Below are positions 1-15,860 of a stretch of 21,290 nucleotides of DNA, piece by piece. The DNA is from a virus. Positions within the stretch are counted from its first letter, which is position 1, and the number at the start of each line of letters is the position of its first letter. A program made the position numbers and the translations under genes. Below the pieces are notes generated by a model. It saw only the letters and a list, made by a program, of their open reading frames with translations. It had not been told where the DNA came from and did not search any database. The stretch lies in the IMG/VR virus record IMGVR_UViG_3300048828_000112, positions 1 to 21,290 of that record. One strand, written 5' to 3'.

Positions 1-286
1 CACCATTAGCAATATTAACACCAGCATAAGGTAAGTATTCAACCATACTCCAATGTAGTAGCATTGGTTTAATATAATCATTTAACAAAGCTAAGTAAGG
101 ATTTGCTAGTGTACCAGCAACTATTTCATTTTGTATTTTAACATATAAATCAGTACCTAAATAATTTTGTATATGTATATCTTGCGCTTGGTTTAAAAAT
201 GGTAATAGCTTATCATTATCAATATTACCATTAGCAGCAGTAAATACTGAAATATCGTGTCTTGTTACAAATAGTGCTTTACTCAT
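1..286 (-). CDS. Head-tail connector / head-completion protein, DUF6712-like (partial, 3' end outside window)
   Basis: The reading frame starts at an ATG at 286 and stays open for 95 codons to the window edge, so the C-terminus is missing. The start (MSKALFVTRHDIS) is followed by a helical segment with LLPFLNQAQDIHIQNYLG around residues 28-45 and YIKPMLLHWSMVEYLPYAG around 72-90. The pattern of an N-terminal 'AQDTHIQNYLG' helix and a later 'YIKPMLIHW..VEYLP' helix is one I associate with DUF6712-type proteins found next to portal and capsid genes in Bacteroidota phages. Their presumed role is in the neck, connecting portal to tail. It is the last visible gene of the head module and starts 9 nt after the stop of the 129-aa coiled-coil protein upstream. 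The family call rests on remembered motif similarity only. Confidence 0.7.
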   Translation of the reverse strand, partial: MSKALFVTRHDISVFTAANGNIDNDKLLPFLNQAQDIHIQNYLGTDLYVKIQNEIVAGTLANPYLALLNDYIKPMLLHWSMVEYLPYAGVNIANG

Positions 287-294
287 TTCTTATT

Positions 295-684
295 TTATTT
301 ATAAGGTGACCTAAACTTATTAGTGCTTTGTTTTGAGTCAAGTAATTTTTTTCTTTCTAATAAATCTGAAAACCCATCTACAGAAGATGCTTTAACACCT
401 AATTCTTTAGCCATTGTTTCAACTCTATCAATTACATTTTCTATTAATCTTGCTCTTGATGCAGCATCTTTTAATAAGGAAGTATTGTTATCATATGAAG
501 ATTCATATTCTTTAACTTGTTTTCTCATTTTTTTTTCAGAAGCTTCAAGTTTTTTTATTAAACCATTAGACCCTGATAATTCTTTTTTAATATCTCCTGA
601 TATAGATAACTCTATTCTTTCACTTGCTAATTCTACTTTTGTAGATTCACTTAGTTTTTCAAATACTCTTCTTTGTGTTCTCAT
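295..684 (-). CDS. Coiled-coil protein, head-module paralogue A (129 aa)
   Basis: I place the start at the ATG at 684 (MRTQRRVFEKLS), not the upstream ATG at 711. The 684 start aligns residue by residue with the start of the neighbouring paralogue (MKTTIERIFETLS). It is also preceded by TAAAATTAAA, the A/T-rich leader typical of this genome, whereas the 711 start would overlap the previous gene. The protein is charged, helical and without membrane segments or signal peptide. Its N-terminus carries FEKLSxxxKVELASERIEL and its middle MAKELGVKAS, both matched in the adjacent gene. Function is unknown. Its position between portal and connector suggests a virion-assembly or head-associated role, but that is inference from context. 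Confidence 0.75.
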   Translation of the reverse strand: MRTQRRVFEKLSESTKVELASERIELSISGDIKKELSGSNGLIKKLEASEKKMRKQVKEYESSYDNNTSLLKDAASRARLIENVIDRVETMAKELGVKASSVDGFSDLLERKKLLDSKQSTNKFRSPYK

Positions 685-703
685 TTTAATTTTATTTTTT
701 AAT

Positions 704-1087
704 TTAAACAAACGACATTTTTTTTGCTTTTAATAGCTCTCTACTTGCTGAATCAATTTCTTTAAAAGCTTCTGAAATAGCTTTTTTTGATGCTTTTAAT
801 TTTCCACTAACTTCAACACCTAAATCTTTAGAAGCTTGTTCTATTTCTTGATACCTTGCGTTTGCTTTTAAATATGATTTACCTGCTGCATCATACTTAT
901 TTAACATTTCTTGTATCGCTGATTCAATTTTAAACTGTTCATTATAAGCACTTGTAACTAATTTATTTGCTTTTGTAAATTCAGCTTCAAAATCATCTAC
1001 CAAAGCCAACTCTATCTTCTGAGATTTTAGCTCTACTTTATCTTCTTTACTTAATGTTTCAAATATTCTTTCTATTGTTGTTTTCAT
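704..1087 (-). CDS. Coiled-coil protein, head-module paralogue B (127 aa)
   Basis: A complete ORF begins with ATG at 1087, 3 nt after the portal stop codon, so it is probably co-translated with the portal. The N-terminus (IERIFETLSKEDKVELKS) and a later EQASKDLGVEVS segment match the downstream neighbour, showing that the two genes are diverged tandem duplicates. Most of the chain is predicted helix with heptad-like spacing, rich in Lys, Glu and Ala. No catalytic motif, membrane segment or signal peptide is visible. I do not recognise a named function. Location immediately after the portal is consistent with a head-associated or assembly-accessory protein. Confidence 0.75.
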   Translation of the reverse strand: MKTTIERIFETLSKEDKVELKSQKIELALVDDFEAEFTKANKLVTSAYNEQFKIESAIQEMLNKYDAAGKSYLKANARYQEIEQASKDLGVEVSGKLKASKKAISEAFKEIDSASRELLKAKKMSFV

Positions 1088-1090
1088 TAC

Positions 1091-2911
1091 TTACTTTTTA
1101 TAATTTGGATGATGTCCGTTATTCGGCATATTTACAGGAGCTTTCTTTGCTTGTTTGTGTCCTCTTGGTTTTGCTTCATAACTCTTTGGTATTTCTTTAA
1201 CCACATCATAATCTTTTAAATCTTTACTACCTTTTTTACCATCTAAAGCAGCATCAACTTTCATTCTGTACAATACTTGTTGCCATTTGTGTCTACAATA
1301 AACACCACCTTTGAATTTAAATAAATCGTACTTTTGGTCTTTGTGCATTGGTAACTCAGCAGCTGTAAAATTCATTTGCCTAGATGCTTTGTCAATATCT
1401 TCTAATCTATACACAACACCTCTTTTACTTCTTGCCATCATTTCTTTGCAAAACTTTCTACTCTTACCACCTTTGCCTTTTGCACTTGCTGTATTGTATT
1501 TGTATCTAACCTTATAATAACTTTTATCTAAATTAGATTCTTTGTTGGGTGCATTTTTAATTGGTGTATCACTTTTAACTGCTTCTGCTAATTCAATCAT
1601 ATTATTAGCCCAATCTTCAACACTCATATTATCATCACTAACATCTCTAATATCAACAATTTCAAATTCTTCACTATTGATTATTTCGCCACCTAACGTA
1701 TCTAATGCTTCATTTAGTAGTAAATCACTATCTTCATCTGAAATGCTCTTAGAAGCCATTATTTCAAGCTCTGTGCTAAAATCATCATCTTCTTTTATTC
1801 CAGTTTGTTCTTCAATAGCTTCTTCACCTTCAACATTTTCTAAATCCATAAACTCAAGTGGTTCAATAGTTTTAAAGTAAAGATTTAAACTAATATCATT
1901 AACCGCTAAAATTGCATCTAAGCTATCAATTAAAAGGTTTTGGTATGGTTGTATTACTACGTTATTAAAAAGTCGTGAAGCGTTCTCTATTTCATCAGCA
2001 TTAGAAGAAAAACCATTTGCTGAAGATAACCCTAATAATAATGGTGATGTAACTCTATGTGTTAGCATAATTTTTCTTGAACATTCTGTACTTAAATATT
2101 CATAGTGTGCAGGTGCATCTGTCAATGGTATATCCTCAACAGTTGTTTTAGATTCTGCATTATTATTAAATGCAACAATCACTTTTTCTCCGTAACTTCC
2201 AGTAAGTTTTTGCATTACATCATTCTTAATAGCAAGTTGCTTTTCTCTATCTGGTACACCATTGTTAAAATTCACAACTTTTGTACCTGAAAAACCATTT
2301 TGCGTATCATTAATTAAGAAACAAGCAATTTCATCTTCTAATGTAGCATACGCTGTATTATAATCTGCTGGTGAATAGTAGTAATATCCAGTAACATATC
2401 TTTTAATAATATAAATTTCGTTTTGTGCGCCACTACCAAAAACAGGAAACTTTTTTAATTTTGTATTTCTACTAACTTTTGTCCAATCTGGAGAATAATA
2501 ATAATTCTTAATTTCTCCTTTGTCATTCATTTTTTCAGCTCTTAACGTTTCTCTTGGAAAATGTGTTATTGCTGATATTTTATTTCCGTTATAAGTAATC
2601 TGGAAACTTGCTTCACCTAATAATTTTAAATCTTGGCAAACATTTCTTAAATCGTGTGGTTTTACTAAACCCCTCATTTGTGCATACTGTTCTGGTTTTT
2701 TATTAGAATCAGTAGCATCTAATCCTTTTCCGTATATTTGATTAACAATACCATTAATTACAGCATTGTTTGTTGTACTATCCATATAGGCATCAATAAG
2801 ACCTTGATAATAGTCGTTATTTTCACCTATTGAAACATAGTTTTTATTACGTTCTTCTGTAATAGTAGGTCTTTCGTATTGATTAAGTTGTATTAAGTGC
2901 AAGTTATCCAT
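1091..2911 (-). CDS. Portal protein with C-terminal extension domain (606 aa)
   Basis: This is the dodecameric ring protein through which DNA enters and leaves the capsid. I chose the ATG at 2911; an in-frame TTG at 2920 would add three residues. Residues about 35-350 carry portal-like features: an early NNAVINGIVNQIYGKGL helix, KLLGEASFQITYNG, FPRETLRAEK, and ITHRVTSP-like LTHRVTSPLLLGL near 285-295 followed by SSNADEIENASRLF, close to the 'gly-rich/EE' helix of phage portals. Residues about 360-450 are very acidic. Residues 464-550 form an extra domain (YYKVRYKYN, SRKFCKEMMA, YDLFKFKGGVYCRHKW) that I associate with portal or protease C-termini in Bacteroidota phages. The gene overlaps the previous stop by 8 nt. 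Confidence 0.85.
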   Translation of the reverse strand: MDNLHLIQLNQYERPTITEERNKNYVSIGENNDYYQGLIDAYMDSTTNNAVINGIVNQIYGKGLDATDSNKKPEQYAQMRGLVKPHDLRNVCQDLKLLGEASFQITYNGNKISAITHFPRETLRAEKMNDKGEIKNYYYSPDWTKVSRNTKLKKFPVFGSGAQNEIYIIKRYVTGYYYYSPADYNTAYATLEDEIACFLINDTQNGFSGTKVVNFNNGVPDREKQLAIKNDVMQKLTGSYGEKVIVAFNNNAESKTTVEDIPLTDAPAHYEYLSTECSRKIMLTHRVTSPLLLGLSSANGFSSNADEIENASRLFNNVVIQPYQNLLIDSLDAILAVNDISLNLYFKTIEPLEFMDLENVEGEEAIEEQTGIKEDDDFSTELEIMASKSISDEDSDLLLNEALDTLGGEIINSEEFEIVDIRDVSDDNMSVEDWANNMIELAEAVKSDTPIKNAPNKESNLDKSYYKVRYKYNTASAKGKGGKSRKFCKEMMARSKRGVVYRLEDIDKASRQMNFTAAELPMHKDQKYDLFKFKGGVYCRHKWQQVLYRMKVDAALDGKKGSKDLKDYDVVKEIPKSYEAKPRGHKQAKKAPVNMPNNGHHPNYKK

Positions 2912-3287
2912 AATATACAAAGTTGTTATCTCCTGTACTTTGCTCTATATAAACACCATTTGAGATTTGGTAATCTGATAGAGTTTGGTTAGTACAGTAC
3001 ATTTTATCTTTAAAAATTATTGTGTTATCCGTAGTGTTTGTGATTGTAATAGTATAATAGTTGTTTTCTTTTAATATTGTAGGAGCACCAACTTCTTCAA
3101 CAAGAACATATTGGTAATAATAATCCAATTCAGTAATACTCATATTGCTATCTGTAAAAATAATTTTATTTTGTGCCTCAGATTTAATATCAATTTTATA
3201 TGTTTTAACCATATTAGGATAGGGTATTATTGCCTCTCTTGGTATAAAGTTAATGTTTTTTGCTCCAACTACTGGGTGTATCTGCAT
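2904..3287 (-). CDS. Conserved Bacteroidota-phage structural protein (127 aa), function unknown
   Basis: The protein starts MQIHPVVGAKNINFIPREA and appears all-beta, with alternating polar/hydrophobic strands. Motifs include LKENNYYTITITN near residues 75-90 and IIFKDKMYCTNQTLSDY near 90-106. An 'IYKDKIFCTNQT..DYS' signature is familiar to me from small proteins beside the capsid and portal genes of flavobacterial phages, where they are annotated as hypothetical. It has no signal peptide and no membrane segment. It is the first gene after the hairpin terminator at 3298-3327, so it and the portal may be expressed less than the capsid genes upstream. A minor head or decoration role is possible but unproven. 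Confidence 0.65.
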   Translation of the reverse strand: MQIHPVVGAKNINFIPREAIIPYPNMVKTYKIDIKSEAQNKIIFTDSNMSITELDYYYQYVLVEEVGAPTILKENNYYTITITNTTDNTIIFKDKMYCTNQTLSDYQISNGVYIEQSTGDNNFVYYG

Positions 3288-3297
3288 ATTTTAAAAT

Positions 3298-3327
3298 AAA
3301 AAAGGGGAGGTTAATCACTCCCTCCCC
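3298..3327 (-). terminator. Rho-independent terminator between the 182-aa gene and the portal segment
   Basis: On the minus strand a perfect 7-bp stem GGGGAGG/CCTCCCC with a 10-nt loop (3304-3327) is followed by six T residues (3298-3303). This is a well-formed intrinsic terminator, unusually GC-rich for this genome. It lies inside the head module and is probably partial, limiting expression of the low-copy portal relative to the capsid and 182-aa proteins. Confidence 0.8.
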
Positions 3328-3377
3328 TCCAATCAAACATATATTATGAATCACACAATTATTTAATCGCGTATTTT

Positions 3378-3926
3378 TTAACTATTAGTTCCTACAGTTA
3401 CAGTAACAGTAGCAGAACTCATACCAGCAAAAGGGTCAGCAGCAGTACCGCCACTAATAAAATTGGCTGGTTGTAATTCTGAACCAGTTAATGTTAATGA
3501 GTAACCTGATAAATCACCAAAAGCAGTTCCCGTAGCTATACTTCCGCCCGTAACTTCTAGGCCGTGTTCTAAACCACATAAGAAGAAATTTCCATTTCTG
3601 TCTTCTACACAAACGTGTGGTCTTCCGTAAGCCATAAGTTTTATTTCTTTATTATCTTCTTTAGATAATTTTGGTAATGTTAAAGTTAATGTTTCTTCAA
3701 AGAATGTTGTACCATTCTCAGTTGAGGATGTAATAGCAGTTTCCAAACTATTTGTTCCTTTTAAATCATATTGAAAAGCAGTAAATGTACCAGATAAATC
3801 TGTAATCTCATCATCGGTTTTTGTTACAGTTCCTAAATCGCCATAATCAACGAACCAAGCTCTAACAATACCACCGATTACATCTTTACAAGGAACTTTT
3901 CGCCCTTTTGTTAAATCGCAAGCCAT
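3378..3926 (-). CDS. Abundant structural protein, probably tail tube or capsid-associated (182 aa)
   Basis: The sequence starts MACDLTKGRKVPCKDVIGG and is predominantly beta, with TSSTENGTTFFEETLTLTL near residues 67-85, KEIKLMAYGRPHVCVEDRNG near 93-112 and a Gly/Thr/Ala-rich C-terminus. Proteins with 'CDLT.GRK.PCKD..GG' and 'KLLAYGRPHV.VED..GNFF..G.E.G..VTGG' are common just downstream of the major capsid gene in Bacteroidota phages. They are usually labelled structural or tail-tube-like. The gene is bounded on both sides by hairpins (3943-3964 and 3304-3327), as expected for a highly expressed virion protein whose transcript is separated from the lower-copy genes. I am confident it is structural, less so that it is the tube. 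Confidence 0.65.
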   Translation of the reverse strand: MACDLTKGRKVPCKDVIGGIVRAWFVDYGDLGTVTKTDDEITDLSGTFTAFQYDLKGTNSLETAITSSTENGTTFFEETLTLTLPKLSKEDNKEIKLMAYGRPHVCVEDRNGNFFLCGLEHGLEVTGGSIATGTAFGDLSGYSLTLTGSELQPANFISGGTAADPFAGMSSATVTVTVGTNS

Positions 3927-3942
3927 ATTGTTTTTTTAAATT

Positions 3943-3964
3943 AAGGGAGCATTTCAACTCCCTT
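3943..3964 (-). terminator. Hairpin after the capsid gene (leaky terminator or mRNA 3'-end stabiliser)
   Basis: A perfect 7-bp stem AAGGGAG/CTCCCTT with an 8-nt loop sits in the 53-nt gap between the capsid and 182-aa genes. What follows on the minus strand is AATTTAAAAAAA rather than a T run, so termination is likely weak. It may stabilise the upstream capsid transcript. Confidence 0.5.
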
Positions 3965-3979
3965 GTTATTATTTAATTC

Positions 3980-4906
3980 TTATACGTGGTAAAGAACGAT
4001 GTCTGAACCAATTCCGTATTGAACACCAGCAGTATATCTCATAACAACTCTAACGTTTTGAGAACCATCAATATCAGCCATATCAATTAACTTAACTTCG
4101 TTCATATCTGATAATAAACCAGTTCCAAAGAATAAGTTAGATTTTTGAGCAGCCATTGCAGTATTGTCATTAAGACCATTAGCAACGAATAATTTAACAC
4201 CATCAAAAGAAAGTGCGCCATCTCCGTACCACATATGAGATTGTGCATTAACACCACTATTAGTAGCAGCAAATCCACCTAAAGCTCTTACATAAGCTCT
4301 TGCAATGTTTTGTGAAATGTAAATGTGTACATCTTCTTTACCATAAAGTGAAGATGGTATTGCATCAACAATTTTTCCTAATTCACCTACAACATTCGCT
4401 GCATCAACAGTAGCACCAGCTACATCAAGAACATCTGTATCAGCAAGTGCTAAAGTAGCTAATCCATCAAATTCTCCAGCAGTTGCGTTTGTACCTTCCC
4501 AGATATTTTTTTCTGTTTTTTCTGCAACTAATCCAGCAACGTGTCCGATAATGTAATCAGAAAATTGTGGTGGCATATTGTCAAATGCAGAATATCCCAT
4601 TTGTACCGCTTCCCAATCAGATGCAAAATCTTTTTTACAAAATTCAAGATTTACTTGGAATTCTTCTGGTTGTAGGATTCTTTCAGTTATTGTTACTGCA
4701 TCATCAGTTTTGGTAAAATCACAACTTGCATTTGCTATTATAGCACCAGTTGCAACTTTTTTCATTACTGATTTATACTTAATGTTCGGCTTCACTTCTA
4801 TTCCGCCTTTATCTATTGTGTTAGCTGATAATAGAGCTGCACTTAGGTATTTCCCAGCGAACTCACCAGCGTATGTAGTTGTTAAACTATTTAAACTATT
4901 AGCCAT
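3980..4906 (-). CDS. Major capsid protein (HK97-fold-like, 308 aa)
   Basis: The protein that builds the icosahedral shell. It directly follows the acidic scaffold-like gene (12-nt gap), which in turn follows the protease, the classic protease-scaffold-capsid order. The sequence starts MANSLNSLTTTYAGEFAGKY. It contains EEFQVNLEFCKKDF near residue 80, a long axial-helix-like region around 105-130 (DYIIGHVAGLVAEKTEKNIW), an SSLYGKEDVHIYISQNIARAY segment near 185-205 and a C-terminus with QNVRVVMRYTAGVQYGIGSD, typical of capsid P-domain strands in Bacteroidota phages. Length fits the family. The leader TATAAAATAAA before the ATG has no Shine-Dalgarno sequence. The next gene lies beyond a hairpin, consistent with high expression of the capsid. 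Confidence 0.85.
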   Translation of the reverse strand: MANSLNSLTTTYAGEFAGKYLSAALLSANTIDKGGIEVKPNIKYKSVMKKVATGAIIANASCDFTKTDDAVTITERILQPEEFQVNLEFCKKDFASDWEAVQMGYSAFDNMPPQFSDYIIGHVAGLVAEKTEKNIWEGTNATAGEFDGLATLALADTDVLDVAGATVDAANVVGELGKIVDAIPSSLYGKEDVHIYISQNIARAYVRALGGFAATNSGVNAQSHMWYGDGALSFDGVKLFVANGLNDNTAMAAQKSNLFFGTGLLSDMNEVKLIDMADIDGSQNVRVVMRYTAGVQYGIGSDIVLYHV

Positions 4907-4917
4907 TTTATTTTATA

Positions 4918-5526
4918 TTAATTATTGTTAAAAATTTTATCAAAAACCCTGTCTTTAGTTGTTTTAATTCTGTTTTCAGATATTTTAAAGTTTACTTTAT
5001 TATCAGCTTCAGCTTCAGGATTATGTTTTACAGGAGATGGAGCAACAGCAGATAGTTCTTCTTTTGTATCTTCTATTACTTCTTCCTTCATTTCTTCTTT
5101 GTTACCCATTTTGTCCTCTATCATCGCTTTAATTTCTTCTACAGCAGATGTAAATTCTTCTTTAGTAACATATTTCATTTCTTCTTTTTCTTCTTCTTCT
5201 AATTCAGTTTCTTCAACTTCTTTAGAATCATCAGATAATTCTTCTTCAACTACTTCTTCTTCAGTAGCATCTTTAATACTGTCAATTAAACCTTCTTCAG
5301 TAATAACTAAAATTTTGCCATCTTCTAATTTATATTCACCAATAGGTAAAGCAACTTGCTCATCATCGGTTTTTATAAATATAGATTTTCCAGCTTCAAA
5401 AGATTCTGCAACAAGTACAGTACCATTTTCTAATTTCATTTCAGCCATTTCTATTTTATTTTCAGAAAGATTAACTTTTTCACCAACAATATTTTTTATC
5501 TTGTTTAGTATTTCGTTTGCTTTCAT
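4918..5526 (-). CDS. Acidic scaffold-like protein (202 aa)
   Basis: Located between the protease and the major capsid gene, the normal place of a scaffolding protein. Residues 1-80 form a compact beta-rich segment (ENGTVLVAESFEAGKSIFI, LEDGKILVITEEG). Residues about 84-160 are extremely Glu-rich with runs such as VEETELEEEEKEEM and look like a coiled coil. The C-terminus becomes basic (ENRIKTTKDRVFDKIF), which fits a capsid-binding tail. It has no cysteine, signal peptide or membrane segment. The gene is the first large ORF after the promoter-like element at 5538-5573, which ends 12 nt from the ATG. Function is inferred from composition and position, as scaffolds share little sequence. Confidence 0.75.
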   Translation of the reverse strand: MKANEILNKIKNIVGEKVNLSENKIEMAEMKLENGTVLVAESFEAGKSIFIKTDDEQVALPIGEYKLEDGKILVITEEGLIDSIKDATEEEVVEEELSDDSKEVEETELEEEEKEEMKYVTKEEFTSAVEEIKAMIEDKMGNKEEMKEEVIEDTKEELSAVAPSPVKHNPEAEADNKVNFKISENRIKTTKDRVFDKIFNNN

Positions 5527-5537
5527 AATTTGAGTAT

Positions 5538-5573
5538 ATATACTATAAACGATTTAAAACCTTTACTGTTATA
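5538..5573 (-). promoter_or_regulatory. Putative phage late promoter, copy 2 (upstream of scaffold and capsid)
   Basis: On the minus strand TATAAC (5568-5573) is followed after 10 nt by TTAAATCGTTTATA (5544-5557), then GTATAT. The same 30-bp layout occurs at 14379-14408 and 16900-16929. Twenty bases (5538-5557) match the copy at 14373-14392 at 19 positions. If TTTATA is a -10 box, transcription would begin about 13 nt before the scaffold ATG at 5526. Confidence 0.55.
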
Positions 5574-5591
5574 TTTTTTTGCAACTTTTTT

Positions 5592-5732
5592 TTATACTTT
5601 ACCAATTCCTTGTGCTTGTAAACTTCCATCACAACATTTATTACTGTATTTTTTACCATCTGCACATAAGCAACCACGCTTTGTATTTTTAGGTGATGTA
5701 TTACTTGGTGTTTTAAATCTTTTACTTTTCAT
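5592..5732 (-). CDS. 46-aa Cys-rich small phage protein
   Basis: A short complete ORF, with ATG at 5732 and TAA ending at 5592. It begins MKSKRFKTPSNTSPKNTKRG and continues with CLCADGKKYSNKCCDG, so it has a basic N-terminus followed by a compact C-x-C-x9-CC cluster. The cysteine spacing could bind a metal ion or form disulfides. Tiny proteins with 'TKRGCLC.DG.YS.KCCDGSLQAQGIG' are familiar to me from the structural regions of Bacteroidota phages, where they have no assigned role. It lies between the protease stop (5738) and the promoter-like element before the scaffold gene, and fills an otherwise empty 210-nt gap. The frame is exactly 47 codons including stop. Confidence 0.75.
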   Translation of the reverse strand: MKSKRFKTPSNTSPKNTKRGCLCADGKKYSNKCCDGSLQAQGIGKV

Positions 5733-5737
5733 ATTTT

Positions 5738-6952
5738 TTATTTTATTGGTACACAATTAGGAACTTTCTTACCATTCTTAATTTTAAATCCTATCATTTC
5801 ATAACCAGCATAGCAAGGTTTTTTCATTTCGTGCTTTTCACAAGGCATATACCATTCTTGACCTTCAAATTCGTGTATATGGAAACCTTCGCATCCAATA
5901 TTTTCTGCCATTTCTTCAGCTTTCTCTTGTGTGCTATAAGCTAACCTATCATCAATAATAGCAAATGATTTATCTACTACCATAGATGATAAATTAATTT
6001 CACCTAGCTTTTTAAGTTTACTTTCACTCCAACGCAAACCAGCTTTACCACCCCATAATAAATAAGAGATAGTTCCACACGCTTCTTTGTTGCCTTCATC
6101 ATAATACTCTTGCGCCCTTGACAAGTAACTGTACATTCTTTTTAAAGTTTCTACACTTATATTTTCTTTTTGTGCTAATTGTTGTGCGCGTATTTTACCA
6201 ACTTGTGTTGCACATTTATTATTTACTTTTTCATTTAGTTCAATACCTCTTTTTGCATTATTACTAACCGCATCTGGATAATCGTTAAATGTTTCTAATT
6301 CTGTTCTTTTACCCGATTTTGTTCTTTTATCTTTTTTAATTAATGCTTTAATATTATTTAGCATATATTCAGCTTCAGCTTCTTCAATAGCTTCTAACTC
6401 TTTACTCCATTGAGATTGCAAACTTGGGTCTTTAACTTGTGCTTTATCTGCAAAATATCCTTCAATAGAAAATCCTTTTACTTTTCCAGTTTTAACATAA
6501 TCATTCCAAACATCTTCGTTTTCTACTTTCATTGAAATCATCCAAGTACCTTTAGGAACTTCTAAACCATACTTATTAGATTTATCCATTTTTGTATCTT
6601 CCACTATCCAAGATTCAACAACAGTTAAATTGTTAATTTCCATTTCGTGTTCTAAAGTTGCGTTGTTCTGCATACTGTTTTGAAAAAATAATTCACTTGC
6701 CCTTCTAACTGTTTTTTCAGAAAAGTAAACATAAAAAGTATTTTCTCCATTCTTTCTAAATATTGGCTTATTAGGTATTAAAGCAGCTCCCATTAACAAA
6801 CGCTTTTCATCATCTATTTTAGCTAATTTTATTTCTTGTTCTGATAGTGTCAAAAAATCGCTTTCAATTGCGCCAGATTCCACTATTGAAATTGCTTCGA
6901 TTCCAGTTAAACCTTCGCTATCTTCATCTAATATTAATTCTATTATTTCCAT
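5738..6952 (-). CDS. XkdF-like prohead protease with C-terminal accessory domains (404 aa)
   Basis: A capsid-maturation protease candidate. The start is the ATG at 6952 (MEIIELILDEDSEG), 10 nt after the tape-measure stop; an ATG at 7009 would run 47 nt into the tape-measure gene and is rejected. Residues about 1-185 match the XkdF-type serine protease layout: GIEAISIVESGAIES near 17-31, FYVYFSE near 73-79, a candidate catalytic His in TLEHE (His102), PKGTWMISMKV near 133-143, and a candidate nucleophile in GFSIEGYF (Ser162). Residues about 222-316 carry a second domain with CATQVGKIRAQQLA and LKRMYSYLSRAQEYYD. The last 70 residues (GFHIHEFEGQEWYMPCEKHE, PCYAGYEMIGFK) form a third, Cys-containing segment. 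Gene order protease-scaffold-capsid supports the call. Confidence 0.75.
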   Translation of the reverse strand: MEIIELILDEDSEGLTGIEAISIVESGAIESDFLTLSEQEIKLAKIDDEKRLLMGAALIPNKPIFRKNGENTFYVYFSEKTVRRASELFFQNSMQNNATLEHEMEINNLTVVESWIVEDTKMDKSNKYGLEVPKGTWMISMKVENEDVWNDYVKTGKVKGFSIEGYFADKAQVKDPSLQSQWSKELEAIEEAEAEYMLNNIKALIKKDKRTKSGKRTELETFNDYPDAVSNNAKRGIELNEKVNNKCATQVGKIRAQQLAQKENISVETLKRMYSYLSRAQEYYDEGNKEACGTISYLLWGGKAGLRWSESKLKKLGEINLSSMVVDKSFAIIDDRLAYSTQEKAEEMAENIGCEGFHIHEFEGQEWYMPCEKHEMKKPCYAGYEMIGFKIKNGKKVPNCVPIK

Positions 6953-6962
6953 TGTTTTTATT

Positions 6963-8885
6963 TTAAAATGTTGCTTGATTAATTGTATTATTTTGTAATT
7001 GTTGTGCATTAGTAACTGCTCCAGCTACTACAAATGCTTGTATTGGTGGTTGTGAACCTAATGCTCCAGCCACTTGATTAAATCCACTTTGCCCTACTAC
7101 GTTAAAACTTGGTGCTTGGCTTGGTGATGATGGAGCTGTTGAAGGAGATGTACCTCCTGTTGGCGAACCTCCAGCTTTTAAAGTTGATAAACCTTTTGCA
7201 GTTGCAGCAACAGATGCTGCAATACTAATTCCAGCACTTATTTTATTTGCGGTTATTTCTGCTGCACTCAAAGCTAATCCTCCAGGTATTGCAGCGTATT
7301 TTGCGATTGCTGCTGCATTTGCTGCTTGTGTATTTATTATGGTTTTAGCTACTCCAACTGCATTTTCTGCTATTAAAGCTGCTGCTTGTATTTTTTTATT
7401 ATCTCCAGCTAAATCTTTAACTAAACTAAGTCCAGATTCAATATTAGCAAATTGAGCATCTTGTATTGCTTTTTCTGCATCTGCTACTGTTTGAGCATCA
7501 TCAATTTTTTTTTGATTAAGAATTTCTGTTTCTGCATCAGCTTCTGTTTTTATTCTTAATTTTTCAGCTTCAATTTCCGCAAGTCGTGTTACTTCTTGTT
7601 GGTCTGCTTGTTGTTTAAATTCATTTAATGCTATTTCTGCATCTATCTTAGCTTGTGTTCCAGCATTAGCATCACTAACAATTCCTTGCAATCTTGTTGT
7701 TTGCATTTCACGTTCTTCTGCATCTATTTCTTTTTGTTTTTCTAATCTTTGTAAATTATCTTGTATTTGCTCTGCATTAAATCTTTTTTGTTCAATGGAT
7801 AAATTAGCTTCTGATTCAAGTTTAGATTTGGTCATTTCCATCTCCTCTTTGCTAAGTGCTAAATCATTTGCTTGTTGTTCACTTCTAAAACCAGCAACTT
7901 GTGCTCTAACTGCCACAAGTTCGTTTTCAGCTTCCATTACAGCTTTCTTAAATTCTATATTGTTTTTATCTTTTTGTAATTCTGCTTTTGCTGCTTTTAA
8001 AGAAATTTGTGCATTAGATAACATCGCTGCTTCTTGTTGTTCTAAAACAATCGCAAGTTCATCATTTGCTTTTTTTCTGTCTGCTATACTGTTTCGTTCA
8101 TCATCTCTTATTTGCCTTAATGATTCAGCTTGTAAATCGTATTTTTCAATTAAACCTTGATTTGCTACTGCTGCTAATTCAGCAGATTTTTGAAGTTCAA
8201 CATTTGCTGCTGCTTGTTTTACAGTTGATTTTGTATATTCAGTTAATGCTTCTACACCTTTTTTAACAGTTTTGCTAATTTTTTCAGTTGAATTATCAAC
8301 TCCAGTAGCAATATCAACTAATTCTTTTCCAGCTTCTTTAACTGCTTCTAATGCACCTTTAAAATCTCTTGCAAATAGTTTTTTCATTGCTAGCGCTAAA
8401 AAACCAAATGCTTCAATAGCTGATTTAACTCTTTCAATAATATTATCTTTTATAGCTGTTGCAAAAGTTTTTAATGATTCTAATGGGTCATCAAAAATTG
8501 ATTTAAAAAAACTTGTAACAGCTCCAATATTCTTAGATATGTAGGTAAAAAAATCATTAAATGCTATTGCTAAACTTTCAAAAGCTATATTAAAAATGTC
8601 TACAACTTTTTGATTCTGCTCAAATAGTTCTTTTAATTTACCTAATGCCAATGCTATTAAAGTAAATACACCAGCAGCTTTTGTTATTGATTTAATTCCA
8701 TTTCCTAAACCTTTTGCGCCTTTTTTAGCTGCTCCAAAACCTTTACCAAGTAATCCTAATTTTTTAGTTTCTTTGTTAGTGGTTTCTAAACCTTCATTAA
8801 CTTTTTCTACACCATCAGAAACTTTTTTTAAATCTTTCTCAGCTTTACCAGTTTTGGTAATTATTTCAAATATTTTAGTTATCAT
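6963..8885 (-). CDS. Tail tape-measure protein (640 aa)
   Basis: This long helical protein sets tail length and is threaded through the tail tube. Evidence: very high Ala/Lys/Glu content; a hydrophobic segment near residues 70-90 (AAGVFTLIALALGKLKELF); a second amphipathic hydrophobic region at 155-175 (AIEAFGFLALAMKKLF); a continuous coiled coil from about 215 to 480 rich in Gln and Glu; then an Ala-rich C-terminal stretch (AAALIAENAVGVAKTII, AAIAKYAAIPGGLALSAAEI) and a Gly/Pro/Ser-rich tail. At roughly 0.15 nm per residue it would predict a tail of up to about 95 nm, implying a siphovirus- or myovirus-like particle. It starts with an ATGA overlap with the 45-aa gene upstream. Confidence 0.8.
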   Translation of the reverse strand: MITKIFEIITKTGKAEKDLKKVSDGVEKVNEGLETTNKETKKLGLLGKGFGAAKKGAKGLGNGIKSITKAAGVFTLIALALGKLKELFEQNQKVVDIFNIAFESLAIAFNDFFTYISKNIGAVTSFFKSIFDDPLESLKTFATAIKDNIIERVKSAIEAFGFLALAMKKLFARDFKGALEAVKEAGKELVDIATGVDNSTEKISKTVKKGVEALTEYTKSTVKQAAANVELQKSAELAAVANQGLIEKYDLQAESLRQIRDDERNSIADRKKANDELAIVLEQQEAAMLSNAQISLKAAKAELQKDKNNIEFKKAVMEAENELVAVRAQVAGFRSEQQANDLALSKEEMEMTKSKLESEANLSIEQKRFNAEQIQDNLQRLEKQKEIDAEEREMQTTRLQGIVSDANAGTQAKIDAEIALNEFKQQADQQEVTRLAEIEAEKLRIKTEADAETEILNQKKIDDAQTVADAEKAIQDAQFANIESGLSLVKDLAGDNKKIQAAALIAENAVGVAKTIINTQAANAAAIAKYAAIPGGLALSAAEITANKISAGISIAASVAATAKGLSTLKAGGSPTGGTSPSTAPSSPSQAPSFNVVGQSGFNQVAGALGSQPPIQAFVVAGAVTNAQQLQNNTINQATF

Positions 8886-9019: not shown

Positions 9020-11271
9020 TAATTTGGTTCGTTTAATAGTTCAAATGATGTTTCACCAGATTGTAGCTTAGTAGTCATTTTATTAATAGTATATGCTCTT
9101 GTTCCTATAATTATTAAATCATCTAAGGTTAACATTAAAAGCACTTTTAAAGGCAATACTGCTTCAAACTTAAATAACCTTGTCCTAGTGTTAAATACTC
9201 TAGTTATATAGTTTTGATAATACTTTTGAAATAAACTGTTATTTATACCAGCATAATCTGTTAGTGTATATGTGTTTATTTCACTACCAAAATTTAAATT
9301 ATGTGTTGGTGGTGTTGTAGAAGTTCCAAGTTCATTACATACACTAGGTACAAAATAACTTGTTAAAGATGCTCTTGTACCAGCTACAGGCAAACTCCCA
9401 TCAGCTGGTCTTGTAGTGTTTGCAACATAATTTATAGGTGTTGATGAAGAACCAACTGAAATACCGTAAAAAATTAATGGTGCGCTTATAGATGGTTGTA
9501 ATTCTTCATCTATTGATGTGCCTACTTGTATATCAGTCCTAGAGTTTGTTAAACCTACATTAAATAATCTTTCAAATAGCATTTGAGAAAATGGAAGTTT
9601 TATTTGATATATATTTTTTTTACTTACATCAACTCTATAATTTAATTCACCATATTTTTGATTATTTAATAATTCAAATCTTTGTGCTAAAATTGTTTCT
9701 GGGTCTTCATATTCAAAATCAACTTCACTAAAAGGAATAACATCAGCTACAGTATTTTTATCTGTTTTAACATATTCTGTTAAATCTTGCGTTTCGCCAC
9801 CAGCATAAAAATCATCTAAAGTTTTAACTATTATTTCGTTTTGAAAATTAGAAAAAACTGTTAAATTAAATTGTCTAAACAAGCCATTTAAAAAATCTTT
9901 TACTTTTAATTTAGGCATTTGTTCAAGTATGTTTATTTTACCCACAGCAGGACTTTGTAAAGTTACTGTTGGTGTAAATGTAGCTGTGAAATTATATACA
10001 ATATATTGTGGTGGTGTAAAAAAAGTTTCGGTATATTCAACACGCCTATTAATAGTAATTTCAGTTTCAAATTCAATAGCTTGTTCTGAAATTAATCTGC
10101 TTATAATATTGTTTAAACCTCTTGGATTTGCTGAAATATCAGTTATTGGTATTCCGTTTGGTCCACCTATAACAAGGGTTAAAGTTTGTGTACCACTTAC
10201 TGAATTTATTTGTGCTTTAGCTGAATAATTATCAGATGTTAATATTGATAAATTATAAGGAACACCAACATAAGCAGAAGTAGGTGTTATTGTAACTGAT
10301 ATTGTTGTTTCATCTAATGTTGATGGTTTTGTTGCTTCAAATACCCAGCTTCGCCAAGTAAAAATTCCAGTTGATTCTACAAAATAACCCCATGCAGAAC
10401 CAGTATTAGTTAATTCACTAACATCACCTGTACCATTATATGATTGGCCATCATTTAACCAAGTTCCAGCAATTACCATTTTGCCTTTATCCCTATGCAG
10501 CCAAAGATAAAGATTTGTAAATACATTAGAATCAAAAAATTCACCACTTTTAAAAGTTATTCCATACTGCTGTTCAATAGCTTTTAATATTAATTTTATT
10601 GTAATAGCTGGTTTTAAATCTTTTGTTAATACTCCTCTTTTGTTATGTTGTGTTGCAGCAGTACTTACATTATATGGATTGTCAAAATCTCCTAAAGAAT
10701 TAAAAACATATGAACCAGTATGTGTAATTAAAGGAAATATAATTGCATCGTTATAGGTAACACCATCCCTAGTAAAATTTAAACCATTTGTAAGACCTTC
10801 TTTTATGTTGTCATTTCCATTAGTTACTTCTTGAAAATCAAAATTACTTAGCCAAGCTAAATCACTTAATTGGTCTTCATTAATTTCGTTCTTAAAAGAA
10901 ACAGTATCACCAAAAAAAGTAACCTTATACATTGATGGTTTATTGTCTTTCATTACAACTTCATTAAGTTGTATTTTACCTTGCTTAAAATCAAAATGAT
11001 TTAGTTCTATTTTAGCAGTTGAAAAAACTTGACTATTAAAATTGTTTACATCTGGGTTAAACCAGTATTTAAAAATCTTATTATTTGTTTTAGATGCTGG
11101 CAAATTAAAAGTTTTACTATAATCAGTAAATAGTTTTTCAATGTCTTTTACATCTTGTATAACTTGAGTAATAGCAATTAGTTCTTCTTCCATTAAATCA
11201 ACTCTTACGAAATCCGCTTCTGTATTTGAATTAACTATTTGTGGAGATATGTATAAAATTACTTTTTGCAT
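9019..11271 (-). CDS. Large tail / baseplate-hub-like structural protein (750 aa)
   Basis: A long protein with mixed alpha/beta composition lying between another tail protein and the tape measure. The N-terminus has FVRVDLMEEELIAITQVIQD, KDIEKLFTDYSKTFNLPASK and TNNKIFKYWFNPD, up to about residue 70. That pattern ('DL.ede.v.lt.siqdi.diek.ftDfSrtF.vPAS..NnkiF.h.yn') I know from tail-region proteins of Bacteroidota phages. The centre is beta-rich with Thr/Asn/Ser-rich strands, possibly sugar-binding. The C-terminal 60 residues (LPLKVLLMLTLDDLIIIGTRAYTINKM) resemble baseplate or tail-hub endings. It abuts the 386-aa gene. I am confident it is a tail structural protein; hub versus tip is inference. 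Confidence 0.65.
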   Translation of the reverse strand: MQKVILYISPQIVNSNTEADFVRVDLMEEELIAITQVIQDVKDIEKLFTDYSKTFNLPASKTNNKIFKYWFNPDVNNFNSQVFSTAKIELNHFDFKQGKIQLNEVVMKDNKPSMYKVTFFGDTVSFKNEINEDQLSDLAWLSNFDFQEVTNGNDNIKEGLTNGLNFTRDGVTYNDAIIFPLITHTGSYVFNSLGDFDNPYNVSTAATQHNKRGVLTKDLKPAITIKLILKAIEQQYGITFKSGEFFDSNVFTNLYLWLHRDKGKMVIAGTWLNDGQSYNGTGDVSELTNTGSAWGYFVESTGIFTWRSWVFEATKPSTLDETTISVTITPTSAYVGVPYNLSILTSDNYSAKAQINSVSGTQTLTLVIGGPNGIPITDISANPRGLNNIISRLISEQAIEFETEITINRRVEYTETFFTPPQYIVYNFTATFTPTVTLQSPAVGKINILEQMPKLKVKDFLNGLFRQFNLTVFSNFQNEIIVKTLDDFYAGGETQDLTEYVKTDKNTVADVIPFSEVDFEYEDPETILAQRFELLNNQKYGELNYRVDVSKKNIYQIKLPFSQMLFERLFNVGLTNSRTDIQVGTSIDEELQPSISAPLIFYGISVGSSSTPINYVANTTRPADGSLPVAGTRASLTSYFVPSVCNELGTSTTPPTHNLNFGSEINTYTLTDYAGINNSLFQKYYQNYITRVFNTRTRLFKFEAVLPLKVLLMLTLDDLIIIGTRAYTINKMTTKLQSGETSFELLNEPN

Positions 11272-12920: not shown

Positions 12921-13375
12921 TAGCAGTAAGTCATTTCATCTTTAGTACCAGCATCAAAAGTAACCGCCCAGCCGCAAAGCATATTGTCGAATCTTTCTGT
13001 AAATGGTTCGCAACTTGCTGTATTAATTAATTCAAATTTATCTCTATATAAATCACTCTTTTGCAATACCCTCATAACTCTTGTAGCTAATGCTAACTGA
13101 GTGTTTAATATATCTTGTCTATTGTCATTACCCCTATATAAATCTGTAACTTGTTCGTTACTAATATCCACTAAGTCCATAAAAAATATAGTCATATTAA
13201 AAGTTACATAGTTGTTATTAATTGTAGCATTATTTATCATTACGTGTGATAATGGAAATAAACTTTGTTTTTTTAAATCTATATCTGCTATATCTCCAAA
13301 TGTAATTTCGTGGTTAAAAGGTTCTGCTGTAACAACTTCTTTTATTTTATCTATTATATTATAAAAACTATTCAT
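12920..13375 (-). CDS. Conserved tail-completion / minor tail protein (151 aa)
   Basis: The sequence has FGDIADIDLKKQSLFPLSHV near residues 26-45, VTFNMTIFFMDLVDIS near 57-72, then RGNDNRQDILNTQLALATRV near 81-100 and ASCEPFTERFDNMLCGWAVTF near 119-139. A protein with 'gDifdiDl.Kqt.FPl.Hi', 'dIvDiS', 'NTQLav..r' and 'SCEPFtdRF.N.laGW' is common in Bacteroidota phage tail modules. By size and place next to the gp10-like gene it may act as a tail terminator or joining protein. It is coupled to its neighbours by ATGA (upstream) and TAATG (downstream) overlaps. The precise function is not established from sequence. Confidence 0.6.
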   Translation of the reverse strand: MNSFYNIIDKIKEVVTAEPFNHEITFGDIADIDLKKQSLFPLSHVMINNATINNNYVTFNMTIFFMDLVDISNEQVTDLYRGNDNRQDILNTQLALATRVMRVLQKSDLYRDKFELINTASCEPFTERFDNMLCGWAVTFDAGTKDEMTYC

Positions 13376-13638
13376 ATTGCTTTCATATAAGTTGGTGTAT
13401 GTTCTCCTAAATCTTGTTCAACAAATTCTTCTAAATTATCTATTGCATAATCAAAATCTAAATTTTCTTTTTGTATTAATATATCTAAACAAATCCAGTA
13501 GTCATATATAGCTTTTATTGGCTTTCTTACTGTAACACCTAAAAATGCTTCTTCAAATCCATCTACCAGAATTATATGATTATTTTCATTTAATAAATCA
13601 CGTTCTGTAAGTTCTTCTAGTATATCATCTTTTGTCAT
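13372..13638 (-). CDS. Widespread small phage protein of unknown function (88 aa)
   Basis: An acidic 88-residue protein with VDGFEEAFLGVTVRKP near residues 25-40, AIYDYWICLDILIQKENLDF near 43-62 and LEEFVEQDLGEHTPTYM near 68-84. The combination 'GFdeAfiG', 'avYDyekCieiLi..dgm.yeeA.e..e.nv....GE.TP.f' occurs in small proteins of many unrelated phages and marine viruses, with no function that I know of. Its ATG overlaps the stop of the -1 frame product of the preceding gene (ATGA), and its own stop overlaps the next start. That places it in the same translation-coupled chain. Confidence 0.7.
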   Translation of the reverse strand: MTKDDILEELTERDLLNENNHIILVDGFEEAFLGVTVRKPIKAIYDYWICLDILIQKENLDFDYAIDNLEEFVEQDLGEHTPTYMKAI

Positions 13639-13899
13639 CTTCTATTTGCTTTTAATATATGTTGTTCTAATTGGTATTTATCTTTTTCAAAGGCCAAGTG
13701 CATTAAACAGGTATGGAGTTTTGTTTTGGTGATTTCATCGTATTTGAGAATGTTTCCATTAGTGAGGCCATAGATGGATTGATACCAACCCCATTTTGAA
13801 GAGAATCCCGCAGATGCTGTGGTAGCTCTACCTCCTGCTGAGTCGCTAAATAATTCAGTATATGATTCTGTAATTCGTTCCTTAAATTGTAAAAAAAAA
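13635..13899 (-). CDS. Frame -1 extension giving a 246-aa frameshift product
   Basis: From the T9 run downwards the -1 frame is open for 85 codons and ends in a TGA that overlaps the ATG of the 88-aa gene, filling the gap after the 223-aa stop. It reads like a real protein: LQFKERITESYTELFSDSAG, a Gly/Ala/Thr linker, then SSKWGWYQSIYGL, LKYDEITKTKLHTCLMHLAF and EKDKYQLEQHIL. The WGWY..IY.L....k.dEi.k...h.cL.yL.fEK pattern resembles second domains of frameshifted tail-assembly chaperones. The frame is closed just upstream by a TAA at 13947-13949, so ribosomes must enter it between 13946 and the conserved part; the slippery run lies exactly there. No ATG is available before the WGWY domain. A homopolymer sequencing error is the main alternative. 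Confidence 0.7.
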
Positions 13900-14374
13900 C
13901 AAGCGAACCAAAAACTATATCTAATGTTGTGTTTGTCATATCGTATTTATCAGAGCTTTCATAATCCTCAACTAAATACTTTTCTTTTTTACTAAATGTA
14001 ATTGGTCTAAATAAAACACCTATTGCTTTGTGCATTAATTCCCAATCTGCAAGGTATGTATCTAAATCAACATATTCCCCAAAAGTCATATCATCCAGTT
14101 TAGGTATGAATCCAAACTCTTTATTATCTAAAGTAAATCTATTAATGAATTTAGGTTCTTGTTGAAATAGTTTTGTAATGTCTTCACATATTTGGTTTAT
14201 GTCAGTAGCTTTAATTTGTAAAACACTTTTAAGTGGTATATTACAAAAAATCTCAATCATCTTTTGCTGCAAGAAATTATCCATTTCTTTACCATCTGAT
14301 ATTTTTAGCCACTTTTGGTATTGCTTTAAAGTAACTTCATTTAATGCTTCTGGAATATTAATTGTGATATTCAT
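13703..14374 (-). CDS. Tail-assembly chaperone-like protein, short (zero-frame) product (223 aa)
   Basis: First gene of the tail module, starting at the ATG at 14374 immediately after the promoter-like element. It begins MNITINIPEALNEVTLKQYQ and contains FGFIPKLDDMTFGEYVDLDT near residues 87-106, typical of Bacteroidota-phage proteins that read 'mtlgEyidld'. The zero frame continues past the T9 run at codons 159-162 with FYNLRNELQNHILNYLATQQ and ends with NGVGINPSMASLMETFSN, which also looks like conserved protein, so both frames of the overlap appear to be coding. Two products from one start, sharing 161 residues, is the arrangement of lambda gpG/gpGT-type tail chaperones. Unlike those, it is about 4.8 kb from the tape-measure gene. 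Confidence 0.65.
   Translation of the reverse strand: MNITINIPEALNEVTLKQYQKWLKISDGKEMDNFLQQKMIEIFCNIPLKSVLQIKATDINQICEDITKLFQQEPKFINRFTLDNKEFGFIPKLDDMTFGEYVDLDTYLADWELMHKAIGVLFRPITFSKKEKYLVEDYESSDKYDMTNTTLDIVFGSLVFFYNLRNELQNHILNYLATQQEVELPQHLRDSLQNGVGINPSMASLMETFSNTMKSPKQNSIPV
13891..13900 (-). promoter_or_regulatory. Slippery site for -1 frameshifting (T TTT TTT within T9)
   Basis: On the minus strand, zero-frame codons 159-162 are GTT TTT TTT TAC. They contain the heptamer T TTT TTT, which allows both ribosomal tRNAs to re-pair after a -1 slip, giving TTA CAA and the 85-codon extension. The nine-T run could also promote transcriptional slippage. I could not evaluate a downstream stimulatory structure. 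Confidence 0.65.
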
Positions 14375-14408
14375 ATACTATAAACGGTTTAATTAGTGAA
14401 TCGTTATA
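14373..14408 (-). promoter_or_regulatory. Putative phage late promoter, copy 1 (upstream of tail module)
   Basis: Minus strand: TATAAC (14403-14408), 10 nt, TTAAACCGTTTATA (14379-14392), then GTATAT running into the ATG at 14374. With TTTATA as the -10 box and TATAAC as an upstream box the spacer is 18 nt, and the transcript would start at or next to the ATG, that is, leaderless. It overlaps no other gene and lies directly after two terminators, as expected of a module promoter. TATATTTG at 14411-14418 matches the Bacteroidota -7 consensus TAnnTTTG and is an alternative host-type promoter. Confidence 0.55.
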
Positions 14409-14417
14409 TACAAATAT

Positions 14418-14459
14418 AAAAAAAAGTAGGTAACGCTCTTTTGCCGACTACCTACTTTT
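14418..14459 (-). terminator. Second of two tandem terminators after the terminase genes
   Basis: An 11-bp perfect stem AAAAGTAGGTA/TACCTACTTTT (14422-14432 and 14449-14459) with a 16-nt loop, followed on the minus strand by a T run continuing to 14418 (eight T in all). It is a strong intrinsic terminator. Because A and T flank the stem on both sides it might also stop transcripts coming from the other strand. Confidence 0.85.
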
Positions 14460-14518
14460 ACCCAAAACATATACTTAGTGCGTAAATTTTTATACATTAA
14501 GTTTATAATCAAATATAA

Positions 14519-14548
14519 TAAAAAAAAGCTACCTTTTACAGTAGCTCT
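14519..14548 (-). terminator. First of two tandem terminators after the terminase genes
   Basis: On the minus strand AGCTAC, an 8-nt loop, GTAGCT (14527-14546) and then seven T residues (14521-14527, the last pairing in the stem). It lies about 100 nt after the large-terminase stop. The whole 274-nt gap 14375-14648 contains only these two terminators, a repeat (14599-14642) and promoter-like motifs; I find no convincing gene in it. Confidence 0.8.
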
Positions 14549-14598
14549 TAAATTTCTGAGGACTTACGCTAACATACATCGGCTGCCTCTTATATATC

Positions 14599-14648: not shown

Positions 14649-15860
14649 TCAATAAATGTGATATTCACCTAAACTTGGATTCTGTAATTGATAGCTAACT
14701 GCATACCTCAACGCATCAATAGCGTGATTAAAATTATCTACTGGTGTTTGTGATTTCTTCTCTAACCAACAATAGTTATTTAACTCTTTAATTAATTCTG
14801 TACTATCTTCAGTAATTACTAAATCATAATCTTGTAATAAACTAATACCAAATGTTATTGAACCTTGACCTTTAATTGCTGGTACTACATTACAATCTCT
14901 GCTTAGCTCTGTGATTAATCTTGGTTCTGCTGAATCACCTACTATTAAATTATCTGCTGCAAACTTCTTGTTAAGTTGTAATATCTCACTTGTAGTTAAT
15001 TTAGTTTGGTAGAAACATAGTTGTATATAGATAACTTTATTTTCTTTATCTATACTTGTTTTAACTAATGTTGAGGGGTCATTGCTAAATCCATAATCTT
15101 GGCCATAAACAACTTTACCTACTTGTTTAAATTCTCCAATGCTCCAATCAGTAAATATAACACCTTCTGCTTTATCTAACCAACTACCTTCTATTGTATG
15201 CTTGTATCTATTAGGCCTTCTAACCTTCATTGTTTCAATCTGCTTAATATAGCTTTCTGAAAGGTTATCTATATTATCTAAATATGTAGTATGTATATAG
15301 GTAGTATCTTCTTTAGTTATGTTACTACCAGCAGAAACACCTCTATCTTCAAACCAACGCTTATAAATGAAATGTTCTTTGGTTGTTGGATTCAATATTA
15401 ATATAACTCGATTCTCTTGTATTTTATTTCTTACAGTTAAATCAATCTTATCAAATATATCTTCATCATTTAATTCTTCTGCTTCATCCATTACCCAAGT
15501 AGTAATGCCTTGTAAAGATTTAAGATTTGCTGTTTGGTCGCCTGAGCTTGTTTTAATACCTCTAAATATTATCTTGCTACCATTGCCTTTATTAATTATC
15601 TCATCTTTTGTTATTTTGAATTGGTCAATAACTCCAAGCAGTTCTAACTTTTCTATAAACTCAGGTATGATTGAAATACCAGCAGCCCTCAACGTATATC
15701 TTGTAAATAATATTGTATGTCCAGCTTGATAGGTTAATAGTAATAGTACTGAGTTAACAGCAAATGATTTGCCTGAACCTCGACCACCAGTTACAATAAA
15801 GTACCTAGCAAATGATTCATCTAATACTAAATACTTTTTATTGAGCTTTAATCCGTGCAA
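14649..15860 (-). CDS. terL: Terminase large subunit, PBSX/Terminase_3-like (403 aa)
   Basis: The ATP-driven DNA-packaging motor and nuclease. N-terminal ATPase: Walker A GGRGSGKS at residues 25-32, Walker B TWVMDEAEEL with Asp125-Glu126, and coupling motif ILNPT at 155-159. C-terminal RNase-H-like nuclease: Asp255 in YGQDYGF, Asp309 in VGDSAEP, and Asp382 in NHAIDALRYAV. These are the expected three acidic residues, so the enzyme looks intact. The frame has no ATG near its beginning. A TAA lies upstream, and the only standard start before the Walker motif is a TTG at 15860, overlapping the small-terminase gene by 23 nt. Overall length fits the family. The transcript is closed by two terminators downstream. 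Confidence 0.92.
   Translation of the reverse strand: MHGLKLNKKYLVLDESFARYFIVTGGRGSGKSFAVNSVLLLLTYQAGHTILFTRYTLRAAGISIIPEFIEKLELLGVIDQFKITKDEIINKGNGSKIIFRGIKTSSGDQTANLKSLQGITTWVMDEAEELNDEDIFDKIDLTVRNKIQENRVILILNPTTKEHFIYKRWFEDRGVSAGSNITKEDTTYIHTTYLDNIDNLSESYIKQIETMKVRRPNRYKHTIEGSWLDKAEGVIFTDWSIGEFKQVGKVVYGQDYGFSNDPSTLVKTSIDKENKVIYIQLCFYQTKLTTSEILQLNKKFAADNLIVGDSAEPRLITELSRDCNVVPAIKGQGSITFGISLLQDYDLVITEDSTELIKELNNYCWLEKKSQTPVDNFNHAIDALRYAVSYQLQNPSLGEYHIY

Follow-up and report, generated by a model that had tools for sequence, protein, structure and literature searches.

A gene on the minus strand of a 21,290-nucleotide (nt) stretch of viral DNA (IMG/VR record IMGVR_UViG_3300048828_000112, positions 1 to 21,290, hereafter the window) almost certainly, to judge from comparative sequence data, carries a programmed frame change at a run of nine T's (T9) in a flavobacterial phage. 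The gene very probably encodes a tail-assembly chaperone pair of the lambda gpG/gpGT kind in a marine flavobacterial tailed phage, and RNA polymerase appears the likelier slipping agent. A preliminary description of the sequence had proposed a programmed -1 frameshift at this run giving products of 223 and 246 amino acids (aa). The comparative data uphold the frame change, and the coordinates, both product lengths, the T9, the TAA at 13947-13949, the 85 codons of the -1 frame and the ATGA overlap with the next gene were all correct on recheck. The features of the locus are as follows.

13703..14374, minus strand: zero-frame open reading frame (ORF) of 223 aa, the putative G-like form, with ATG at 14374 and stop at 13705-13703; matches phrog_32199 (unknown function).
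13891..13899, minus strand: T9 run, the putative slip site, in codons 159-162 (GTT TTT TTT TAC).
13892..13898, minus strand: heptamer T_TTT_TTT in the slippery phase (GTT TTT TTT).
13635..13892, minus strand: -1 frame segment of 85 codons plus stop (13637-13635), the putative T-like domain with the motif KWGWYQSIYGL, giving a long form of 246 aa.
13706..13891, minus strand: dual-coding stretch of 62 zero-frame codons also read in the -1 frame (186 nt), from stop avoidance and a drop in synonymous rate.
13947..13949, minus strand: TAA closing the -1 frame upstream of the slip site.
13882..13884, minus strand: TAA closing the third frame three codons past the slip.
13372..13638, minus strand: next gene, 88 aa, its ATG at 13638 forming an ATGA overlap with the -1 stop.

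Residues 1-161 would be common to both products, with the 62-residue tail of the short form exchanged for the 85-residue -1 domain in the 246-aa form. The long product is identical (V-F-F-L-Q across the junction) whether the messenger RNA (mRNA) gains one extra U or the ribosome slips back one base on U_UUU_UUU.

Relatives with the same two-frame arrangement and a conserved T run, which the preliminary description had proposed looking for, came from IMG/VR (four similarity searches), from GTDB genomes (one search) and from the isolate Nonlabens phage P12024S; these relatives, selected by tblastn, reach down to 26-30% identity. A set of 245 loci was drawn from the window, P12024S, the GTDB scan and the first three scans of IMG/VR; 244 of them are usable, as one (L072) ends before the slip site. 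A further 159 loci came from the fourth similarity scan and a DNA-motif scan, some contigs recurring between scans. Non-redundant sets were clustered at 85% identity, and the null models used below treat loci as independent, so that with shared ancestry the strength of each comparison is approximate. A run of at least nine T's is present at the slip site in 244/244 loci, comprising 220 T9 and 17 T10 in phase 1, four T10 and two T9 in phase 0, and one T12. The same holds for all 159 further loci and, over both sets, not one of 327 distinct slip contexts has T7 or T8. When a DNA pattern for KWGWYQS in the -1 frame, blind to the T run and to the N-terminal domain, was used as the sole query, at least nine T's lay no more than 150 nt upstream in 80/80 matches. 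P12024S has T9 at the equivalent position. Elsewhere such runs number 34 in 1.14 Mb of an earlier subset of the loci, and the other non-redundant ORFs (540 kb) hold three against 13 expected from synonymous shuffles; their occurrence at the slip site far exceeds chance. As far as known the hosts are flavobacteria, namely that of P12024S and those of contigs in metagenome-assembled genomes of Winogradskyella, Psychroflexus and Flavobacteriaceae, which could be unbinned phage.

This uniformity bears on two accounts that would place the length of the run outside gene expression. T9 runs are error-prone, and an artefact of homopolymer sequencing or assembly would leave only one frame real. The run is nevertheless found in about 400 loci from many metagenomes and from isolate genomes, and T8 in place of T9, which the preliminary description would have counted against a frameshift, is absent across the relatives; the 327 distinct contexts exclude read error, and the probability that we assign to this account is negligible. 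Homopolymer tracts also serve phase variation (PMC3711429), and T9 might change length in the DNA by slipped-strand mispairing and so toggle between the two forms. Against such toggling, both frames are intact in all complete loci, no out-of-frame allele was seen among them, and the longer runs are accompanied by compensating flanks, which makes a phase-variable tract very improbable.

The -1 frame is open for 78-90 codons in the complete loci and is strongly conserved, with the consensus F..K[WY]GWY.S....L...D.......I......H..L..L.FEK.K. Between the upstream stop and 25 codons past the slip, no ATG or GTG occurs in this frame in 227/234 complete loci. On these data the long form is reachable through a frame change alone, and the slip site is the sole conserved entry to the -1 frame. 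At the distal end the -1 stop is coupled to a start: in 117/120 non-redundant relatives an ORF of at least 50 aa has its ATG no more than about 12 nt from this stop, and in 64 of them the two form ATGA. A separate, internally started gene, whose overlap with its neighbour would be mere tight packing, is how the P12024S annotation, with two ORFs, might be taken. The T run is invariant, however, and no relative has the T-like domain with a conserved start codon of its own, the arrangement that the preliminary description had set against a frameshift; a separate gene is therefore even less credible than a phase-variable tract.

Beyond the slip, the zero frame is also retained. In 119/120 non-redundant relatives it runs on for 45 codons or more without a stop, as compared with about 10% under a null in which the -1 codons were resampled synonymously (71/72 against 6% in an earlier set). 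Divergence at 4-fold sites of the -1 frame is 0.173 within the overlap and 0.289 after it, and that of the zero frame before the slip is 0.322. Because stops are avoided and the synonymous rate drops, about 190 nt are, on this comparative evidence, dual-coding, with the zero frame in use. The preliminary description had reached the same conclusion from a conserved zero-frame motif; the claim itself gains from the stop-avoidance and synonymous-rate tests, whereas the motif, NGVGIN, was rejected as proof, being mostly a by-product of KWGWYQS, whose codons (AAR TGG GGN TGG TAY CAR) read in +1 as N G x G I/T N/S. In P12024S the zero-frame tail has only 25 codons, which shows that not every lineage needs it. 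In an AlphaFold2 model of the zero-frame form, the first 170 or so residues make an ordered domain of mixed helices and strands, and the tail (residues 179-223) is mostly of low confidence; the -1 domain is predicted to be helical.

At this slippery run the -1 change proposed in the preliminary description stands, and the slipping machine is refined here, with RNA polymerase slightly favoured over the ribosome. Nine A or T are enough for efficient slippage by bacterial RNA polymerase (PMC5009743). In the ribosomal alternative, the same gene would give the same products when both the P-site and the A-site transfer RNA (tRNA-Phe) slip back one base on U_UUU_UUU, the route of most known G/GT systems, and this is possible, if in our judgement short of probable. 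G/GT pairs are described as ribosomal in a review (PMC5009743), the heptamer stands in the right phase (NTT TTT TTT) in 120/120 non-redundant relatives, and the flanking T's lie mostly in codons under protein constraint. Seven T's would suffice for the ribosome, yet neither T7 nor T8 is found in the 327 contexts, and where flanks are exchanged T9 persists in three phases. A length of at least nine is kept in phase 1 (most loci), in phase 0, where C follows the run (TTT TTT TTT CTG in loci L116, L155 and L293), and in phase 2 (AGT TTT TTT TTG in L303), where AGT precedes and the last codon supplies the missing T's. The last of these, a later find, is the one exception to NTT TTT TTT and still contains T_TTT_TTT. 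A length that never falls below nine favours the polymerase; T8 would be expected in the flank-exchange cases if seven T's sufficed.

Three further observations bear on the ribosomal account. U_UUU_UUU is reported to be less shift-prone than A_AAA_AAG in Escherichia coli (PMC5009743). No signal of a downstream RNA stimulator, a frequent but not obligatory companion of ribosomal -1 sites, was found in local 60-nt folding windows along 120 relatives (mean z -0.02; z -0.92 in the window itself), a scale that would miss long-range pseudoknots. Other genes avoid T runs, with observed/expected ratios of 0.73 for at least six T's, 0.47 for at least seven and 0.23 for both at least eight and at least nine, and with none of at least ten against 4.5 expected. 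The ribosomal slip phase shows this avoidance least (0.48 versus 0.29 and 0.30 in the others), so that the heptamer is least avoided precisely where it would be slippery. A stop in the third frame lies within five codons of the slip in 97.5% of the 120 relatives, as compared with 73% under the synonymous null, and such quick closure would be useful if slippage puts transcripts into all frames. The case for the polymerase is weakened by several points besides the blind spot of the short folding windows: every run of nine or more T's includes the ribosomal heptamer, most of the flanking T's are explicable by protein constraint, flank exchange occurs in few lineages only, and the arguments for the polymerase are indirect. 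That the hydrophobic column just ahead of the T's is so pure was also considered as proof of length selection and was rejected, as 17 of 52 hydrophobic columns are equally pure.

The identity of the protein pair is drawn from its genomic neighbourhood and from weak similarities. Two neighbours give the locus its setting.

14649..15860, minus strand: TerL, directly upstream of the frameshift gene; its P12024S homologue, 52% identical, is annotated 'phage terminase, large subunit, PBSX family'.
6963..8885, minus strand: tape measure-like protein in the same downstream gene run, recognized by weak PHROG matches to tape measure families and by conserved gene order.

In distant relatives, and largely in P12024S, the order is kept as terS, terL, the frameshift gene, the -1 segment, (88 aa), 151, 163, 386 and 750 aa, tape measure and protease, and the 163-aa neighbour has weak matches to neck/tail completion proteins. 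The frameshift gene thus lies upstream of the tape measure in the tail cluster, not adjacent to it, the two being about 4.7 kb apart with terL adjoining the former, which agrees with the remark in the preliminary description that the gene is far from the tape measure. A search of predicted structures of viral proteins matched gp38 of P12024S along with many phage proteins that are uncharacterised. The functionally named proteins among the top 50 matches, all weak, were a tail assembly chaperone (E 0.025, probability 0.96), a tail assembly protein (E 0.12) and a tape-measure chaperone (E 0.41). Weak matches to phrog_166 ('tail protein') were found in 10 of 58 members (best E 0.0039) and were absent from P12024S and from Flavobacterium phage 6H at E ≤ 1, so that phrog_166 is a weak lead only.

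Gene order, these weak fold and profile matches and the G/GT architecture make a tail-assembly chaperone the best reading, and the G/GT logic put forward in the preliminary description is borne out as a model by the two-frame architecture and the order of the tail genes. A pair with the same frame change and another role, for example a head or packaging accessory, is the unlikely alternative. It would fit a position beside terL with the tape measure about 4.7 kb farther on, as well as the unannotated function of the family and the want of a match to any solved structure. It sits poorly with a gene order that, in the relatives, leads on to tail genes and a tape measure, with named structure matches that are tail chaperones, with the tail-protein profile matches and with the two-frame architecture. 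Several points weigh against the chaperone assignment itself: the gene adjoins terL and not the tape measure, searches of the PDB by sequence and by fold gave no match, Pfam and NCBIfam profile searches gave no credible match, and the identity rests on position, the two-frame architecture and weak fold and profile matches, those to phrog_166 included. Gp10 of phage 6H was examined as a candidate relative and not used as evidence, being a poor fold match with an open frame after it in unclear frame relation. In 6H (L367), an unannotated gap after gp10 (positions 10048-10351, minus strand) contains an open frame with an ATGA-type overlap at its end; this may be a further frameshifted chaperone that has been overlooked, or reflect an indel error.

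Under the reading preferred here, most mRNAs would yield the 223-aa G-like protein, and a minority, read one frame back past T9, the 246-aa GT-like protein, in which the flexible 62-residue tail would be replaced by the conserved helical 85-residue domain. RNA polymerase would slip on T9, where the hybrid is rU:dA, and a transcript longer by a single U would be read exactly in the -1 frame; the main alternative would be a -1 slip on U_UUU_UUU by the ribosome itself. If the lambda pair is a guide, the shared part may bind the tape measure and the -1 domain recruit the tail-tube subunit, with the G:GT ratio set by the frequency of slippage. The chaperone function, the products, their ratio and the polymerase as agent are all things that we infer. 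The proposal as a whole, that this flavobacterial phage lineage sets its G:GT ratio by polymerase slippage on a length-conserved run of at least nine T's, with about 47-82 codons past the run under selection in both frames, has about an even chance of being right.

Tail assembly chaperones of the lambda gpG/gpGT type are the subject, reportedly, of work by Xu, Hendrix and Duda (2004). Like that pair, the present one is predicted from sequence to have a single start, a short form in excess and a long form made by a -1 frame change, the -1 ORF encodes a second domain, and the gene lies upstream of the tape measure among tail genes. The profiles tried detected no sequence similarity to lambda gpG/gpGT, and the gene adjoins terL, unlike in lambda. 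Lambda slips on GGGAAAG, whereas the run here has at least nine T's, and the zero frame does not stop soon after the slip, as in lambda-type pairs, but continues for 47-82 codons in nearly all relatives. The overlap beyond the slip is 186 nt long; SEA-PHAGES training data average 26 nt (PMC10885494). The closest counterpart is gp38-gp39 of the Nonlabens phages P12024S and P12024L (genus Inhavirus; PHROG 32199 and PHROG 38404), which are homologous, with the T9, the -1 domain and the same gene order, and differ in being annotated as two hypothetical proteins and in their short zero-frame tail. In its putative mechanism the locus resembles Thermus thermophilus dnaX (a run of nine) and the Shigella mxiE and spa genes, where an A/T run of at least 8-9 needs no stimulator and an extra base gives the -1 frame (PMC5009743, PMC3711429); those are bacterial genes and not a phage tail chaperone. 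In the papers searched, no tail chaperone is credited with transcriptional slippage, which does not prove that none exists.

G/GT chaperones of the lambda type are well known and have been reviewed (PMC5009743); what is new is a family that lacks annotation, is divided between two 'unknown' PHROGs and has an unusually long overlap coding in both frames. Two such phage protein families, present in hundreds of marine contigs, thereby gain a probable function and correct gene models, and Bacteroidota phages enter the record of recoding, backed by very strong comparative evidence. The locus also poses the question of why a long zero-frame tail is kept under the -1 domain, and offers a clean natural test of whether slippage by the polymerase can take the place of ribosomal frameshifting in the conserved recoding system of phages that is known best. 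If the polymerase reading is true, a tail chaperone would be recoded in transcription instead of translation.

Between terL and the frameshift gene lie two terminator-like hairpins with T tails (14405-14549, minus strand), each followed by TATATTTG, which we take to resemble the Bacteroidetes -7 box; the frameshift gene may head its own transcript. One of the two is detailed here.

14411..14465, minus strand: terminator-like hairpin with a T8 tail (folding z -3.0) and a TATATTTG box at 14411-14418.

The pattern TAnnTTTG is not enriched in the whole window (29 occurrences against 42 expected). Farther downstream, the order of modules in positions 1-8885 is unusual, with tail genes before the head protease, a major capsid-like gene and the portal, and P12024S has the same tail-before-head order across the ends of its record. 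The ORFs of the tape measure-like protein and the protease share 47 nt (6963-7009), and in most relatives mapped the two lie end to end. This XkdF-like protease ORF (5738-7009) has extra C-terminal matches (DUF3721 and others), which suggests a composite protein.
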